A DNA stretch of 64,000 bases from Adhaeribacter aquaticus DSM 16391. Lineage in GTDB: Bacteria; Bacteroidota; Bacteroidia; Cytophagales; Hymenobacteraceae. The DNA lies in contig NZ_KI421517.1 of NCBI RefSeq assembly GCF_000473365.1, positions 1 through 64,000 of the forward strand, written 5' to 3'. The notes under the pieces are model-generated. The model saw only the letters and a list, made by a program, of their open reading frames with translations, did not search any database and was not told the DNA's origin. Shown here in pieces: positions 38,258-59,131 of the stretch. The translations under genes were made by a program, and so were the position numbers. The first letter of the stretch is position 1. Each line of letters starts with the position of its first letter.

Positions 38258-39469
38258 TCAATCCGTTTTTATAAACCGGCTTACCTGATTACCAGCATGG
38301 CTTTCTACCATAAGCAGATACGTGCCGTTGGGCAGATTTTGTACGTCTATGGTAGTTATTTCGCCCCCTTTCATGGGTTGATTTCTTATAATAGTTCCAG
38401 TTAAAGACGCTACTCGTACTGCGTAAGTACCCGGAGCATAAGAAGCTAAATCTATAGTTAAACTGGAAGAGGTAGGATTAGGGTAAAATTTAGCATACGA
38501 ACTACCTTTTCCGGCTTTTACCGCTATTATTTTAGAGTAAGCCGTTTTGCCATCAATATCCTCCTGTTTTAAGCGATAGTAGTAGGTCTGGGCTTGAACA
38601 GCTCTATCGGTAAAGGTATAGGTTTGCACCTGGTTAGTAGTTCCTTTTCCTGCTACTTTGCCAACAGCGGTAAAGTTTTCCCCATCCGCACTACGTTCTA
38701 CCTCAAAATGGCTGTTATTTTCTTCACTGGCTGTAACCCATTTCAGCGCAACAGCCTGATTCTGGTAGGCCCCCGTAAAGGAAATCAAAGTTACTGGCAA
38801 TGGAGTCAAGGCTCCATCTTCTTCTTCATACTTATTGCACTTACTTGGATCTGTACTAAAACTTGTACCTACTGCATCAATAAATTTATCCTGTACTTTA
38901 CCTGCTTTTGCTTCTAAGCCAATAGCGAAATTGGTTATGTAAGTATTTATTTTATTATAATTATTATAGGCTGAGCCACTTGGAAGCTTAAAAGTATAAG
39001 AAAATGTAACATTCTTAATCAAATCCTCATTTATTGAATTATTGCCACTTATTTGAGGAACTTCAAATTTTATTCCTCTTCTTCCATCAGAAAAAACAGG
39101 CAATTCTATATTAAAATTATCTGTTGGGGAAGCAAATGATCCTTCCCAAGCTTCACGGTGATTTGCTCCCCCTTGATGTGGTCTTGCGGGAAAAATTGCA
39201 TCTCCAGGCACGGCAAAATACACATTACTTAAAGCGTTACCACAAGTATTGATAACATTAAATGTAATAGTTACTTCTCTATTGGTAGCATTAATTTGAT
39301 ATTTAACGAATGTTATTTCGAAACAATATCCTTTTTTATTACATATGATTGTGGGATCATCTTGTGCATAGCTTATACTAGGAAAAAGTAAAGAGATGGC
39401 TAAAAGCAAAATCCATATTTTCCTAAAAGGATTTTTATACTCTTTTAAATGCGTGTAAAATAATGCCAT
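38258..39469 (-). CDS. T9SS cargo protein (type A sorting domain), paralogue A
   Basis: This 403-residue protein has a signal peptide ending SISYAQ and a 200-residue N-terminal domain beginning with ICNKKGYCFEITF. A fibronectin-like module (LPVTLISFTGAYQNQAVALKW) follows, then a C-terminal type IX sorting domain (KFYPNPTSSSLTIDL and GTYLLMVESHAGNQVSRF). It should be exported across the outer membrane by the Por/T9SS machinery and may attach to the surface. It is a close relative of the gene at 44030, with a more divergent N-terminal domain. Both have similar leaders (TTTTGTAGGT near the promoter). Confidence 0.9.
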   Translation of the reverse strand: MALFYTHLKEYKNPFRKIWILLLAISLLFPSISYAQDDPTIICNKKGYCFEITFVKYQINATNREVTITFNVINTCGNALSNVYFAVPGDAIFPARPHQGGANHREAWEGSFASPTDNFNIELPVFSDGRRGIKFEVPQISGNNSINEDLIKNVTFSYTFKLPSGSAYNNYNKINTYITNFAIGLEAKAGKVQDKFIDAVGTSFSTDPSKCNKYEEEDGALTPLPVTLISFTGAYQNQAVALKWVTASEENNSHFEVERSADGENFTAVGKVAGKGTTNQVQTYTFTDRAVQAQTYYYRLKQEDIDGKTAYSKIIAVKAGKGSSYAKFYPNPTSSSLTIDLASYAPGTYAVRVASLTGTIIRNQPMKGGEITTIDVQNLPNGTYLLMVESHAGNQVSRFIKTD

Positions 39470-39929
39470 GTAATAAGGTTTAGGAGTTAAAGCTTGATTT
39501 ACTTAATTTGCATTTTACCTACAAAAAATTGCAACATATACATGATCAAGTATAACGAAGCCCATATATAGGAGTTTCGTATAGCCGGTAAACTATGATC
39601 TATTTTCGATGAAGTATAGTTTTTCCTAGTTAAACCTAGCTTTTACCACGTTGAACAACCTGTAAATTATTTCTAAATCCGTCTTTAATTAAAATAAAAG
39701 TTAAATTGCTTAATGGCGTGTTATAGGAAAAAAGTGAAACGAGAACTACTGAGATAATTATTTTGTAAGGGAATAGCTTAAATCTTTAGGTATTTATAAA
39801 AGGCTAAAATTTCCTAAGAAGCAATTAATTTTACTTACTTATAGACTAAAATGTCCTTAAAAACCAACAATCTTCAGAATAGTCATACTACAACTATGCC
39901 CCAAATCCTCCATACCAAAGTGATTTCGA
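39470..39929. other. Gap upstream of T9SS paralogue A
   Basis: This holds the promoter of the minus-strand gene, including TTTTGTAGGTAAAATGCAA (minus) near 39530-39500, which recurs upstream of paralogue B. Beyond that no gene is seen. The clpB relic begins about 39930. Confidence 0.35.
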
Positions 39930-40667: not shown

Positions 40668-43600
40668 ATGAAACAATTTTACTATACAATCTTTATCTTC
40701 TTACTTGGGCTACTTACTCTTATAAGCGACTTACATGCTCAAGCTCCCGAGTTTCTATGGGTAAATCAATCATCAAGCGTTAATTCAGCAGGCACTTCCG
40801 TTGTAACTGATGCCGTTGGTAACACTTATGTTACTGGCAGCTTCACTGGCACCATTACTATAGGAGGTCAGCCTAAAACCAGCTCCGGCTCTTATGATAT
40901 TTTCGTGGCAAAGTATAATGCAGCTGGTTCCTTACAATGGGTTCAATATGGAGGTGGAGCAGAGGATGATCAAGCCTTTGATATTGCGGTAGATGCCTGG
41001 GGTAATGTATATGTAACGGGGAAATATAAGAATTCAGCAACTTTTGGCTCTACAAGTGTAAAAAATAATAACAATAGCTTTACATTATTTGTAACAAAGT
41101 ATGATCCTTTTGGCAACGTGCAATGGGTGACAGGTGGAGACGGACTTGGAATGGCGATAAGTAATGCAATAGCTGTCGATAAAAATGGCAATTCCTATGT
41201 TACAGGTTCTTTTACCACCACTACTAAATTTGGAGATTATACACTCACTAATAATACTGGTTCTAAAGACATTTTTATTGTTAGTTTCAATCCATCTGGA
41301 ATCCCACGGTGGTCTATAAAAGCTGGCTCAACCGATACCGATGGTAATAATAGAATTGTGGACGAAGGTAAAAGTATAGCCGTAGATAAAGATGATAACG
41401 TTTTTGTCACCGGCTTTTTCGCAAGTAAAGCTACTTTCTCTTCAAATGATCTTGCAAAAAATAGTGTTGCTTTATCTACTTCTTCTAACCCTTCGGATAT
41501 ATTTATTGCTAAATATAATTCAAATGGAGCTTTACAATGGGCCAAAGCAGTAGGTGAAGTAACAAAAAACGAGGAGAACCATTTTGGTGTAACTACAGAT
41601 GAGACAGGGAATGCCTATATAACTTCGGCAATTGAAGATAAAAAAGGCCAGAACACTACCAAAATGCTTTTAGCCCAGTACTCCCCATCAGGACAACCAA
41701 GCTGGAAGTTGATAGAGGGGGGAGCAGGTACTAGTAAAGCATTCGATCTGGCATATGGTAAAACAGAAAATAAGTCTGGATACCTTTATGTGACCGGTTC
41801 ATTTACTGGCACTGCTACTTTTGGGAACCCTCTCGTAGATTCCAAAACCCCAACTACCCCAACTTCTCTAACAAGTGCAGGATTTGGCGATATGTTCATT
41901 GCTAAATATGAGGCTGCAACAGGTAAATTATTAGGCGCATATAGATCAGGCGGACCGAACGAAGATGTTGGATTTAGCATAAGCCAAACAAATGACCACG
42001 CTAGCGTAGCCGGCTACTTTAATCAATCTGCTTCAATTGGCACTACAACATTGACTAACTCTTCAGGAAAAGCAATGTTTGCTGCTAAGTTTGGCAAAAG
42101 AATTACTTGGACTGGCACCAATTCAGATTCTTGGACTGATGCCGGAAATTGGTCAGGAAATTTGGCTCCAACGACGACCGATGAAATAATTATTCCGGCA
42201 AATTTAAGCCGTTACCCAAATATAAATTCAGCAACCACAATCAACAATATTATACTGGAAGCTGGCACTTCTTCAACTACAGGTATTTCTACACTTTCAA
42301 GTACTCCTTCACTCACAATAGCAACTGGTGGAAATTTAACCGTATTAGGTTCACTTACCCTTAATACTAACTCCTTTCTTTCCATGAGTACCGGAAGCGC
42401 CCTTACTATTAACGGAGAATTGTTAAATCTTAATGGTAGTAGGTTCAGTACTGCATCTGGAGCTACTGTAAAAATCGCGAATAAAATCTCTAGTTTTGTA
42501 CCTGAAATACCATATGCTAATTTGGAAGTAGAGCCAACTAACGGCACCCACCTAAGTCTCTCTAATAATATTACAGTAAATGGAAATTTGAGGTTAAAAG
42601 GTAAGCTAGGAGCCGCATCTGGCAAAGTATTAACCTTGAACGGCAACATAGAAAATGAGGATGTTGGTCGATTTTATGAAGGAAAGCTGCTGAAAAAATT
42701 AAATATTGGCACCAACACAACTTCTCAAAACTTCGGTGATATCGGCGTAACTATAAAAAACGAAGATGGAGGTGATTGGGGTGAAATTTCAGTTAACCGC
42801 ACTACCGGAGCTGAAGCGGCCGTAGCCCATCCAACTAAGCCTAATATAAAAAGCGTCCAACGCCGCTGGGAAATTACCTCTACCAAATCTGCTAATAAAA
42901 ATGTTTGGTTAAACCTCTCCTGGTTGATGGATGAGGATAACATGGCCGATTATAATGCTGAAAAGATTCAGGTCTGGCATAGCGTAGATGACGGACTTAC
43001 TTGGCATAAAGTTGGGGTACCTACATTAGCCACAGTTACAGGCAATAAACTAGCTGTAGATGTAAGAACTGCCTTATTTGGCATTTTTACCTTATCCAAG
43101 GAAAGTGACAGTGACGGGCTCCTGACTCCGTTGCCAGTTGAACTAATTCATTTTACTGCTAAGAAAACCCAAAGTAAAACCATAAAATTAACTTGGGCCA
43201 CTGCTTCGGAAAAAGACAACGAATATTTTGCCGTAGAAAGAAGCGCGGATGGTACTAATTTTACGCCTCTTGATAAAGTAAAAGGAGCGGGCAACAGTAA
43301 CCAGCGGCAGGAATACACCTTTACTGACAATAATCCTTTAACCGGCACCGCTTACTACCGCCTGCGTCAGACGGATTTTAACGGCAAAACAGCCTATTCC
43401 CCAATCCGGGCTGTAGCCAATAATTTTGCATCAGGTCCGGCGTTTAAACTTTATCCAAACCCGGCTCATGGCGAGCAAGTGCAAGTAAGTTTGCAGGGGT
43501 TACAGGAAAAAGCTAGTTTAGAAGTTACTGACTTGCAAGGCAAACGTTTACGACAACAATCAATAAAACCCAACACAAACCAGCCCCTTCCCATTAATGG

Positions 43601-43676
43601 CCTGCCAGCAGGCACTTACCTGGTAAGAATATTTACAGGCGCGGGCTCACAAATACAAAAGCTCATAATCCAATAA
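40668..43676 (+). CDS. Large T9SS cargo protein with SBBP-type beta-propeller repeats
   Basis: The 1002-residue protein has a signal peptide (LLTLISDLHAQ). Residues about 30-480 hold repeated propeller blades of the type 'GNTYVTGSFTGT' and 'DIFVAKYNAAGSLQW'. A beta-helix-like part starts with ITWTGTNSDSWTDAGNWSG. A fibronectin-like module (LPVELIHFTAKKTQSK) precedes the type A sorting domain (FKLYPNPAHGEQVQV to AGSQIQKLIIQ). The module and sorting domain resemble those of the two flanking minus-strand proteins. It should be secreted by T9SS. A cluster of strong hairpins follows the stop codon. Confidence 0.92.
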   Translation: MKQFYYTIFIFLLGLLTLISDLHAQAPEFLWVNQSSSVNSAGTSVVTDAVGNTYVTGSFTGTITIGGQPKTSSGSYDIFVAKYNAAGSLQWVQYGGGAEDDQAFDIAVDAWGNVYVTGKYKNSATFGSTSVKNNNNSFTLFVTKYDPFGNVQWVTGGDGLGMAISNAIAVDKNGNSYVTGSFTTTTKFGDYTLTNNTGSKDIFIVSFNPSGIPRWSIKAGSTDTDGNNRIVDEGKSIAVDKDDNVFVTGFFASKATFSSNDLAKNSVALSTSSNPSDIFIAKYNSNGALQWAKAVGEVTKNEENHFGVTTDETGNAYITSAIEDKKGQNTTKMLLAQYSPSGQPSWKLIEGGAGTSKAFDLAYGKTENKSGYLYVTGSFTGTATFGNPLVDSKTPTTPTSLTSAGFGDMFIAKYEAATGKLLGAYRSGGPNEDVGFSISQTNDHASVAGYFNQSASIGTTTLTNSSGKAMFAAKFGKRITWTGTNSDSWTDAGNWSGNLAPTTTDEIIIPANLSRYPNINSATTINNIILEAGTSSTTGISTLSSTPSLTIATGGNLTVLGSLTLNTNSFLSMSTGSALTINGELLNLNGSRFSTASGATVKIANKISSFVPEIPYANLEVEPTNGTHLSLSNNITVNGNLRLKGKLGAASGKVLTLNGNIENEDVGRFYEGKLLKKLNIGTNTTSQNFGDIGVTIKNEDGGDWGEISVNRTTGAEAAVAHPTKPNIKSVQRRWEITSTKSANKNVWLNLSWLMDEDNMADYNAEKIQVWHSVDDGLTWHKVGVPTLATVTGNKLAVDVRTALFGIFTLSKESDSDGLLTPLPVELIHFTAKKTQSKTIKLTWATASEKDNEYFAVERSADGTNFTPLDKVKGAGNSNQRQEYTFTDNNPLTGTAYYRLRQTDFNGKTAYSPIRAVANNFASGPAFKLYPNPAHGEQVQVSLQGLQEKASLEVTDLQGKRLRQQSIKPNTNQPLPINGLPAGTYLVRIFTGAGSQIQKLIIQ

Positions 43677-44029: not shown

Positions 44030-45217
44030 TTATAAAGAGGAGCTAAAACTTCCATCAATTTTTACAAACCGGCTCACCTGGTTACCGGCTTGTCCTTCTA
44101 CCATCAGCAAATACGTACCGTTCGGCAAGCTTTTCACATCCAAGGCAGTAATTTCACCTCCTTTTATAGATTGGTTTTTTAAAATAGTTCCGGTTAAAGA
44201 AGCCACCTTAATTAGGTAGTTTCCTGCAGCAAAAGAGCTTAAATCAATATTTAAACTAGAAGATGCTGGATTAGGGTAAAATTTAGCATAAGAGCTGACT
44301 TTTCCGGCTTTTACCGCTATAACTTTAGAGTAAGCCGTTTTGCCATCAATATCTTCTTGTTTTAAACGATAGTAGTACATCTGATCCTGAACTGCTCTAT
44401 CTGTAAAATGGTAGGTTTGCAATTGATTTGAGTTTCCTTTGCCCTTTACTTTACCAATAGCAGTAAAAGTTTCCCCATCCAGGCTGCGCTCTACCTCAAA
44501 ATGGCTATTGTTTTCCTCACTGGCCGTAATCCATTTCAGCGCATTACCCTGATTCTGGTAGGTTCCAGTAAAGGATACTAAGGTTACAGGTAAAGGGGTT
44601 AGGGTTTGGTCATCGCATAATAATGGATCAACACTAAAGGTAGTTTGTTCCCCCTGAAAGAGCTCCAGATTATTTGCGGCTTTTATCTGGCCAATATACC
44701 TTTGCTCTTTAAGGTAATTCACGATATCTTCCTGGGTCAGAAGAATCTTGGTACCATAACTTTTAGGTAGAAAAAAAGTGATAGTAAAAGTATAAGCTTT
44801 GGGTTGTTGGTTTTCTGCACGAGTTTCCTCAAATTTTATTCCTTTAGGATTGGTCGTTTCTTCATGTTTAAATCCCTCTGATGTTTTTGGGGAAAGATAA
44901 TCGTTTAGGGTACCAATTGGAAAGTAAGCAGCGGTGGGCAATTCAAGAAATACATAACTTATGGCATACTTACATTCCTGTTTCTTATCATTTTTCTCCC
45001 TGGATAAAGTATAGGTAAAAGCAACCCTATTATCGAGCGGATTAATAACTATATTATAACTATTAAAAGTTAATGAATAACAGTTACCATTCTTGGAACA
45101 GCCAACCGTCTGCGCCAAGCTGGTGCCAGTAGAAAATAAATAGAATATTGTTACTAAAATCAAAAATTTTCCAAAAAATATTTTGGATTTTTTGTAGTGT
45201 GTGTAAAATGTTCCCAT
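44030..45217 (-). CDS. T9SS cargo protein (type A sorting domain), paralogue B
   Basis: This protein resembles the one at 38258-39469. The start at 45217 (MGTFYTHYKKSKIFFG) aligns with the MALFYTHLKEYKNP start of paralogue A, although the frame could extend 28 codons further. It has the same order: signal peptide, N-terminal domain (SKNGNCYSLTFNSYNIVI), fibronectin-like module and sorting domain (KFYPNPASSSLNIDL to GNQVSRFVKID). The C-terminal halves are far more alike than the N-terminal halves, so the N-terminal domain has probably diversified. It should be exported by T9SS. Confidence 0.9.
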   Translation of the reverse strand: MGTFYTHYKKSKIFFGKFLILVTIFYLFSTGTSLAQTVGCSKNGNCYSLTFNSYNIVINPLDNRVAFTYTLSREKNDKKQECKYAISYVFLELPTAAYFPIGTLNDYLSPKTSEGFKHEETTNPKGIKFEETRAENQQPKAYTFTITFFLPKSYGTKILLTQEDIVNYLKEQRYIGQIKAANNLELFQGEQTTFSVDPLLCDDQTLTPLPVTLVSFTGTYQNQGNALKWITASEENNSHFEVERSLDGETFTAIGKVKGKGNSNQLQTYHFTDRAVQDQMYYYRLKQEDIDGKTAYSKVIAVKAGKVSSYAKFYPNPASSSLNIDLSSFAAGNYLIKVASLTGTILKNQSIKGGEITALDVKSLPNGTYLLMVEGQAGNQVSRFVKIDGSFSSSL

Positions 45218-45686
45218 TTGACAAGGTTTAAAATTTTGATTCCCATTTGTTCCAATTGCATTTAACCTACAAAATATTGTATCATTGAGGAGTAAAAACA
45301 TTACGTTCTTGATATATAAAGGTTTGCTATATTAGACGAACTATTATTCTTCCTAGTTAAAATAGCGTTTTTACAAGACCAATAAAAGAATAAGCTAAGA
45401 ATATTTATTTATTCATAATAAATATTCATAAATTTATATATGTATATATATTTGTATTTTTCTAACAAAAAAAAACGATTACGCATTTTTGATTACTTCA
45501 GCAGAAACCTACTTTTTAAACACATGGAAAAACGTTCAGATATTTATAAAAGCAATATATTCAGTCTCCTACAGCACCAGGTGGTGTACAAAAAAAACTA
45601 ATACCTGAATAGATGTATCAGGATCATAAACAAAGACAAACAAATAAGTAAATAAGTAAGTATTAATCATCGGCTAACTCCTGAAG
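45218..45686. other. Gap upstream of the 157-aa membrane protein gene
   Basis: The part near 45217 contains the paralogue B promoter region (TTTTGTAGGTTAAATGCAA on the minus strand near 45280-45262). A TATATTTG box at 45447-45454 could serve the plus-strand genes, but would leave a leader of about 230 bases. Short tandem tetranucleotides (AAATAAGTAAATAAGTAAGT) lie near 45641-45660. No gene is seen. Confidence 0.35.
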
Positions 45687-57706: not shown

Positions 57707-57780
57707 GGTCACGTAGCTCAACTGGATAGAGCATCTGACTACGAATCAGAAGGTTTGGGGTTCGACTCCCTACGCGACCA
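57707..57780 (+). tRNA. tRNA-Arg (ACG anticodon)
   Basis: A complete cloverleaf is visible: acceptor GGTCACG/CGCGACC, D arm GCTC/GAGC, anticodon stem TCTGA/TCAGA with loop CTACGAA (anticodon ACG at 57741-57743), T arm TGGGG/CCCTA-type with TTCGACT, and discriminator A at 57780. CCA is not encoded. The fifth acceptor pair (57711 A with 57775 C) is a mismatch. The wobble A is expected to be inosine. A terminator follows at 57785. Confidence 0.93.
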
Positions 57781-57826: not shown

Positions 57827-58239
57827 ATTACATACAATACTGTTGTGTGTTTGGGTAAGGCAATAAGTGATTTTAAAGCTGTTTATTTAAATTAGGGGAA
57901 GGTGGCTTCCCTCAAAATTTATTATCACTCCTGCAAAAAGGCAGTTGTTAATTGAAATAAGGATCAATTTAAAGCTAATATTGAAGAACATAATACAACA
58001 ATAGAGTGGCTTTCTCTCGAAATACAAAATTCCTTTTAATAGATTCTTTGCTAATATTGGTCTTTTGTTAAGATTATTCTCTTTTGTTCCCTCAACTGTT
58101 TGGTTTCATTTGCATTTCTTTTAACGAAAAAAATAAAAGAAAACCAGAAAAGAAAATGCAGATGTTTGGCAGTAAGCGAAGACAGCAAAAGCAACAAAAA
58201 CAACCCCATTGAACACTAAAGTCTAGTTGTTCCAAGGCT
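57827..58239. other. Gap downstream of tRNA-Arg
   Basis: No convincing gene is seen. An 18-codon frame (ATG at 58155, basic and Gln-rich) lies near 58155-58211, but nothing supports it. The right part leads into the palindrome-rich promoter region at 58240-58360. Confidence 0.3.
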
Positions 58240-58360
58240 CTTTATAGAATATAGTTTAACTTCTAAAAAACTGTTCACCGAGTAAAAAGAAGTGTTTAAC
58301 GAAAGTTAGTATAGGTTAAGCTAAATATAGCCGTAGGCTATATTCTATAAAGTACATTTG
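58240..58360 (+). promoter_or_regulatory. Palindrome-rich promoter of the 124-aa secreted protein
   Basis: CTTTATAGAATATAG at 58240-58254 and its perfect reverse complement CTATATTCTATAAAG at 58338-58352 flank 83 bases. A second palindrome, AATATAGCC (58324-58332) and GGCTATATT (58336-58344) around GTA, overlaps the right arm. TACATTTG (58353-58360), a -7 box, follows immediately. The gene starts at 58402. This looks like a regulated promoter with two binding sites that may interact, or a structured element. Confidence 0.55.
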
Positions 58361-58401
58361 AATATCAAAAGAGCACAACAGAGATAAAAAGCATAAAGGA
58401 T

Positions 58402-58776
58402 ATGAAAAAGCACTTACTACTATTAGCCTTCACATTAGTACTTTCAACAGTAGGATTTGCTAATGGAACTGTGGATCAGAAAAGATTTGATGCTACTTTA
58501 GATCAGCAGGTAAGAGTAGAAGTTCGCCAGTTACAGGAGCTGCTTCGTTTCAACGAATTTGAATACATCCAGATCAAGAAATTAACCGCAGCTGAGTTAG
58601 CAGATTTACAAGCAGCTAAACAAACATATACAGATGCTGCCGAGCTACACATCCAATTACAACAAATTAAAGATACTTATACTGCAAAAGTAAGTGCTTT
58701 ATTAAACGACTCGCAAAAGAAAGCCTTTTCTGCTTATTTAGCGACTACACAAGCTAACTTATTAGCCATTCAATAA
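58402..58776 (+). CDS. Small secreted helical protein, 124 aa
   Basis: A signal peptide (MKKHLLLLAFTLVLSTVGFA) is followed by about 100 residues predicted as alpha-helical, rich in Gln, Ala, Leu and Thr (VRQLQELLRFNEFEYIQIK, LIQLQQ-like repeats). The pattern recalls Spy-type periplasmic chaperones and other short Gln/Leu-rich secreted proteins, but the family is not certain. Its promoter carries nested palindromes, so expression is probably controlled. A terminator follows at 58809. Confidence 0.6.
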   Translation: MKKHLLLLAFTLVLSTVGFANGTVDQKRFDATLDQQVRVEVRQLQELLRFNEFEYIQIKKLTAAELADLQAAKQTYTDAAELHIQLQQIKDTYTAKVSALLNDSQKKAFSAYLATTQANLLAIQ

Positions 58777-58808
58777 TACTTTTACTATACCTACCACTAT
58801 TTTACCTG

Positions 58809-58838
58809 AAGCCAGCTTTTTGCTGGCTTTTGTTTTTA
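58809..58838 (+). terminator. Terminator after the small secreted protein gene
   Basis: AAGCCAGC, five T, GCTGGCTT form a compact stem followed by TTGTTTTT at 58809-58838. Confidence 0.75.
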
Positions 58839-58969: not shown

Positions 58970-59131
58970 ATGGAAGAATTTGATTTACCGCTTCTTATAG
59001 GATGTACTATGGTACTTTTTGGCATTTTATGTGTTATAATCATCTTTACTAAATCCATTAAAAACACAATTAACGAAATTAACAGTATCCACGCCAGGAG
59101 ACGTAAACGTGCTTTTAATCTAGTGAAATGA
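58970..59131 (+). CDS. 53-aa single-pass membrane protein
   Basis: An ATG at 58970 opens a 53-codon gene reading MEEFDLPLLIGCTMVLFGIL, then CVIIIFTKSI, and a basic tail HARRRKRAFNLVK. One membrane helix at about 8-27 and the positive C-terminus predict N-out/C-in topology. Its stop TGA overlaps the next ATG (ATGA), so the two genes are translationally coupled. A -7 box lies just upstream. No family is recognised. Confidence 0.6.
   Translation: MEEFDLPLLIGCTMVLFGILCVIIIFTKSIKNTINEINSIHARRRKRAFNLVK

Follow-up and report, generated by a model that had tools for sequence, protein, structure and literature searches.

The upstream region of a small secreted protein gene in Adhaeribacter aquaticus DSM 16391 carries two overlapping inverted repeats, which raises the question of what controls this promoter and how far its control element extends beyond this single gene. 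The preliminary description of the 64,000-nt stretch of DNA analyzed here (the window) had read the repeats as signs of a tightly controlled promoter in front of a Spy-like secreted protein, possibly one that responds to envelope stress.

The gene (58402–58776, forward strand) encodes a 124-amino-acid secreted four-helix protein with a signal-peptide-like start, as judged by eye, and belongs to a family of at least 14 copies. A protein search of its own genome (5.17 Mb, 4 contigs) returned 17 matches, of which 14 have E<1e-20; the copies lie scattered along the chromosome and also on a 110-kb contig. The copies at 703362 and 2754893 contain N runs or are incomplete and stand outside the promoter counts. 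The 12 complete copies are 43–98% identical to the window protein, and all of them contain the segment FNE(F/Y)EYIQIKKLT. Family members, mostly distant ones, were found in 43 of the 98 genomes searched (own genome included), all within the same taxonomic family; the orthologs of A. aerolatus and A. rhizoryzae are 31 and 33% identical. From 36 aligned sequences (alignment A3; 12 from the own genome and 24 of 29 loci of relatives), AlphaFold2 predicted four helices with a mean pLDDT of 82 and a pTM of 0.70. STV, CnrX, Spy and CpxP are related periplasmic helical folds, and the model resembles their solved structures with Z values of 9.3, 7.7, 7.2 and 5.7, respectively, all below the helical-bundle threshold of the tool (about 13); the alignment with Spy (3o39) has an rmsd of 3.0 over 71 residues. 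The LTXXQ/Spy Pfam family was not found in the 36 members scanned, among the first 25 of 30 matching families, and no sequence family matched the small protein above cut-off among the matches listed. A profile search of solved structures gave nothing below E 0.5, and Foldseek nothing below 0.07. What remains of the term Spy-like is this weak resemblance of the modelled fold, so that it may serve as a fair guess at the fold and not as a statement of membership. With Spy, CpxP, CnrX and STV the protein shares the character of a small exported all-helical protein; it differs from them in lacking a listed LTXXQ match, in its sub-threshold Z values, in its large recent expansion and in its control region. 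Control of the promoter by envelope stress is a guess.

Both inverted repeats that had been described could be confirmed. The wide repeat has perfect arms of 15 bp, 83 nt apart (58240–58254 and 58338–58352, forward strand), and its extended arms (58230–58254 and 58338–58362) match at 84% over 25 nt. The wide repeat exceeds chance: among 60 dinucleotide shuffles of the window, and among 3000 of the 622-nt intergenic region, none produced a perfect 15-bp inverted repeat with a loop of up to 100 nt. It is the sole perfect 15-bp pair in the window with a loop of more than 18 nt, the remaining pairs having loops of 1–18 nt and a terminator- or palindrome-like appearance. The inner palindrome with its 9-bp arms, AATATAGCC-GTA-GGCTATATT (58324–58344, forward strand), overlaps the downstream arm of the wide repeat and ends 8 nt before TACATTTG (58353–58360, forward strand), a perfect match to TAnnTTTG, the −7 box of Bacteroidota sigma-A promoters as given in an excerpt of PMC9723704. 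A perfect 9-bp palindrome with a loop of up to 5 nt appeared in 5.3% of the intergenic-region shuffles and is alone not rare; the inner palindrome is credible because it is conserved in the paralogs, not because of the shuffle test. A reading at the level of RNA structure was rejected: although the 186-nt fold is stable (z −2.8), its hairpin is located upstream of the −7 box and would be absent from the transcript of this gene. Rfam gave a tRNA as the sole match near the element above its gathering score. This tRNA gene (57707–57780) has a hairpin terminator behind it and is located a short way upstream of the palindrome region.

An alignment of the 200-nt regions that precede the 12 complete copies showed about 130 nt to be conserved. 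The conserved features are TTYANCG-like boxes at an exact pitch of 21 bp, the last of which runs into AATATA-N9-TATATT, followed by TAnnTTTG. In the window these are box 1, TTCACCG (58274–58280), box 2, TTTAACG (58295–58301), and box 3, TTAAGCT (58316–58322), all on the forward strand and each 21 bp after the one before, with the start of box 3 lying 37 nt before the −7 box. The exact pitch is present in all 12 complete paralogs, and in each the −7 box matches TAnnTTTG at 6 of 6 positions and begins 37 nt downstream of the first base of the last box (offset 37). In A. aerolatus and A. rhizoryzae, whose ortholog promoters were read before the model with the −7 box was built, the gene is preceded by two boxes at the 21-bp pitch, TAnnTTTG again lies at offset 37, and the palindrome is lacking. 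The conserved core consists of the direct repeats and the distance that separates them from the −7 box, since both are kept in orthologs without the palindrome; the spacers between the boxes diverge while the pitch and the −7 box are kept. For 22 promoters sorted into 12 groups, agreement with TAnnTTTG averages 5.17 of 6 at offset 37, compared with 2.98 at the next best offset and 1.84 averaged over offsets, and none of 20000 random rotations reached 5.17, a test that overstates independence, because the groups share ancestry and because the relic and receiver promoters described below were found with a model that contained the −7 box. By eye, the promoter has no recognisable −33 TTTG, and boxes and palindrome stand in its place; it thus has TAnnTTTG in common with Bacteroidota sigma-A promoters and departs from them in the −33 region. 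That the promoter is a controlled one is well supported; the element that probably matters most, the 21-bp direct-repeat array, had been missed in the preliminary description.

How much of the control lies in the palindromes themselves? The arms AATATA and TATATT are kept in all 12 paralogs, exactly in 11 of them, while the 9-nt centre varies between subgroups, and the arms look selected because they are kept while the centre differs. The combined pattern of palindrome and −7 box has 11 exact matches in the genome, every one of them before a paralog, with none in the control, and the twelfth paralog carries it with one mismatch; among the 8 genomes of the genus there is one further occurrence, with a different spacing. 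The search for the motifs at other promoters, which had been proposed at the outset, thus returned recurring occurrences. Only the combined pattern is a clean genome marker: the bare 15-bp motif, searched with 2 mismatches, gave 44 matches against 30 in the backwards-read control and was rejected as a marker of a regulon. These observations, together with a wide repeat that exceeds chance, are in favor of a view near the original one, in which a dimeric regulator acts on AATATA-N9-TATATT and the wide repeat provides a second site for DNA looping. The upstream arm of the wide repeat, on the other hand, is missing in 9 of the 12 paralogs and present in only 3, with 1 and 2 mismatches in the two besides the window copy; the promoters of the T9SS-sorted proteins discussed below have different inverted repeats or none; and the palindrome is absent from both Adhaeribacter orthologs. 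We therefore regard the palindromes as rather unlikely to be the control element proper. The inner palindrome is specific to the small-protein family in this genome, and the wide repeat is local to 3 of the 12 paralogs; neither belongs to the core of the element.

The boxes were then taken to the whole genome. The two-box profile gave 26 matches at E up to 10 and 14 at E<0.01, and all 14 precede a member of the small-protein or the T9SS family; as 12 of the 14 were training sites, this shows that there are no strong sites elsewhere and is not a prediction. With the 70-column profile, a run across 8 genomes yielded 19 matches at E of 1e-4 or better: 17 in the own genome and one strong match each in A. 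aerolatus and A. rhizoryzae; in the other five genomes of the genus no strong site was found (best E 0.02). Alignment A2 comprised 15 sites, near-identical and more divergent paralogs being excluded, and alignment A4 comprised 15 of 20 sites, the excluded ones being three near-identical copies together with both T9SS promoters of the window, which have a poor −7 fit. The two-box pattern with one mismatch proved noisy (75 matches versus 90 in the control), and single matches were therefore used only where other evidence agreed. A weaker match of the 70-column profile, 4247395 (E 0.018), which was outside the training set, stands before the gene of a 134-aa receiver-domain-like protein, with TAATTTTG at offset 37. 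The candidate sites 448797 (R2), 337207 and 1181334 (both R1) lie inside ORFs and were rejected. Three weaker matches in relatives, with 21-bp boxes before ORFs and an imperfect −7 box (5, 3 and 5 of 6, by eye), were likewise set aside and excluded from the offset-37 statistic. At 4709221–4709249, two boxes at 21-bp pitch precede an ORF of about 55 codons for a single-helix membrane protein, with TAGCTTAC at offset 37 by eye; this ORF is a possible third target class.

The second family under the same boxes consists of secreted proteins with a T9SS sorting domain, and boxes were found upstream of 6 of its 6 intact members. Two of these lie in the window, both on the reverse strand. The first is a 403-aa secreted protein (38258–39469) with a T9SS C-terminal sorting domain (Por_Secre_tail; PF18962 at 44.6 bits, cut-off 27, and TIGR04183 at 34.9, cut-off 23), preceded by four boxes at 21-bp pitch (39586–39655, reverse strand). 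The second (44030–45217, likely start ATG 45217) is 56% identical to the first and is preceded by two boxes at the same pitch (45334–45361, reverse strand). Further boxed members are located at 4716841, 4703226, 1046567 and 2753664, and Por_Secre_tail was found in the three members scanned. The six T9SS promoters obey the 37-nt rule less strictly than the small-protein promoters: at offset 37 their −7 match is 5, 5, 4, 2, 4 and 5 of 6, and the promoter with 2 reaches 5 at offset 38. Since the boxes also precede a family of exported proteins, the whole looks like a jointly switched gene set. Between the two boxed genes of the window lies an ORF of 1002 aa (40668–43676), the C-terminal part of which resembles the T9SS-sorted family; box scans around this ORF found none.

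Which type of protein could read such an array? The direct repeats bound by LytTR proteins are 9 bp long and 12 bp apart, which gives a 21-bp pitch, and they lie just upstream of the −35 region (excerpt of PMC6193735); the sites of AgrA consist of two direct repeats located upstream of its promoters (excerpt of PMC4227749). The likeness between the present promoter and the LytTR promoters of S. mutans HdrR/BrsR and S. aureus AgrA, as far as these excerpts describe them, lies in direct repeats of about 21-bp pitch just upstream of the core promoter, whereas the array here has up to four boxes, a Bacteroidota −7 box, and T9SS and small secreted targets. All 12 paralogs and both orthologs have the exact 21-bp pitch expected of a LytTR promoter (where spacers measure 11–13 bp), and the expected position just upstream of −35/−33 is found as well, the last box starting 37 nt before the −7 box. 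Compared by eye with the LytTR consensus, TAGGTTAAG (box 3) agrees at 8 of 9 positions and box 2 at 6 of 9, a partial match. The genome contains 6 LytTR genes, none of which adjoins a family member or carries boxes at model strength. In a comparison over 8 genomes that covered most of 91 matches, the LytTR proteins encoded at 2464975, 806979 and 2841004 have orthologs of at least 73% identity in A. aerolatus and A. rhizoryzae. Of these, 2841004 alone is without a close ortholog in the genomes G003–G006 (at most 46%); it has one in genome G007, in which no strong box was found, and this distribution is at best suggestive of the regulator.

AraC-type sites can also repeat at 21 bp, as direct repeats next to the core promoter, and the 21-bp repeats might be the two half-sites of an AraC/XylS-type regulator in place of a LytTR protein. 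The genome has 23 HTH_18 matches, and one of these proteins (4713255–4714118), the N-terminal part of which we take to be ChrB-like, is encoded inside a 4703–4719-kb cluster together with two small-protein and two T9SS-family members. The arrays resemble AraC/XylS sites in direct repeats about 21 bp from centre to centre by the core promoter; they differ in that some hold more than two boxes, and three or four boxes on one pitch, as at 39586–39655, are unlike the usual AraC pair. An AraC-type regulator is possible but less likely, and a LytTR-type regulator is moderately favored over it.

How the family came to so many sites is suggested by the borders of its copies. Close copies differ at only 2–6 of 45–55 fourfold-degenerate sites, and the sequence outside the units is unrelated. 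Within the group of the window copy, the unit common to three copies begins shortly before box 1 and closes with the terminator, whose hairpin lies at 58802–58838 (forward strand), and in two further copies of the group the shared sequence reaches farther upstream; the exact end point varies slightly between units. Inspection of the unit borders by eye revealed neither shared terminal repeats nor target-site duplications. Judged from the aligned copies, the family looks as if it had spread by insertion of promoter–gene–terminator units and not by decay of the flanks. So low a divergence could mean that the upstream block merely hitchhikes, its non-coding likeness reflecting recent copying and descent rather than function. 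Pitch and −7 box are kept, however, while spacers diverge, across subgroups whose proteins are 43–48% identical and across species at 31–33%, and the non-homologous T9SS genes have boxes too; we consider hitchhiking very improbable. The dispersal over chromosome and 110-kb contig, the sharp borders and the low divergence would also fit a small MITE-like mobile element that carries the gene and is marked by the wide inverted repeat. This repeat does not flank the unit, one arm lying outside it and the other inside the promoter, and, apart from the unseen terminal repeats and duplications, the slight variation of the unit ends likewise speaks against such an element, which makes this origin unlikely.

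A relic of the family, the one strong new site of the 70-column profile, was found at 1317275–1317342, outside the training set, where boxes and TATCTTTG at offset 37 are kept and the coding sequence is gone. The relic promoter is syntenic to the gene in A. aerolatus and A. rhizoryzae, and the flanking genes, presumably for a pyrophosphatase-like protein, a short-chain dehydrogenase-like protein and a 104/105-aa membrane protein, are the same. It is followed by a short region and a terminator, and it may still make a short RNA. Small ORFs were also observed near family members. Downstream of the window gene lies an ORF for a one-helix membrane protein with a basic tail (58970–59131), and a decayed-looking remnant of a one-helix membrane ORF is located upstream of the promoter (58150–58212). 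A similar one-helix ORF with a basic tail lies between the T9SS and small-protein genes of locus L060.

Taken together, the locus is probably best explained as one of a set of activator-dependent promoters of co-regulated exported proteins, built on 21-bp direct repeats that are most likely read by a LytTR-type regulator, with an AraC-type regulator as the main alternative. A dimerising or multimerising activator, most likely a LytTR response regulator, would bind the TTYANCG boxes head-to-tail along a single face of the DNA helix. With the last box beginning 37 nt ahead of the −7 box, the activator would lie just upstream of the −33 region, from where it would recruit sigma-A RNA polymerase to a promoter with a good TAnnTTTG and no recognisable −33 TTTG. 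The AATATA-N9-TATATT palindrome over the −33 region would be a later, family-specific addition, probably the site of a second regulator, and the wide inverted repeat a lineage-specific ornament. The T9SS-exported family would be driven by the same switch, and the small-protein family would have multiplied as promoter–gene–terminator units inserted at new sites. It is conceivable, as a more tentative extension, that a portable, self-sufficient unit, made up of the direct-repeat operator, the palindrome, the −7 box, the gene for the small secreted helical protein and a terminator, has reached at least 12 places in a single genome, with the ancestral locus keeping only an empty promoter, and that it constitutes a dedicated, previously undescribed regulon in which interchangeable small proteins are switched together with T9SS-exported surface proteins.

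Among the papers listed on Adhaeribacter promoters, LytTR direct repeats, T9SS control and Bacteroidetes Spy/CpxP, no title or abstract opening described the element. To our knowledge, the transcriptional control of T9SS cargo is poorly charted outside a few pathogens and Flavobacterium. With its fixed geometry of a 21-bp pitch and 37 nt to TAnnTTTG, the motif makes the regulon searchable and narrows the candidate regulators to a short list. Within this one species, the burst of near-identical secreted proteins that carry their own promoter would be a natural case of family growth by unit insertion, in which the relic promoter may serve as a marker of the ancestral site.
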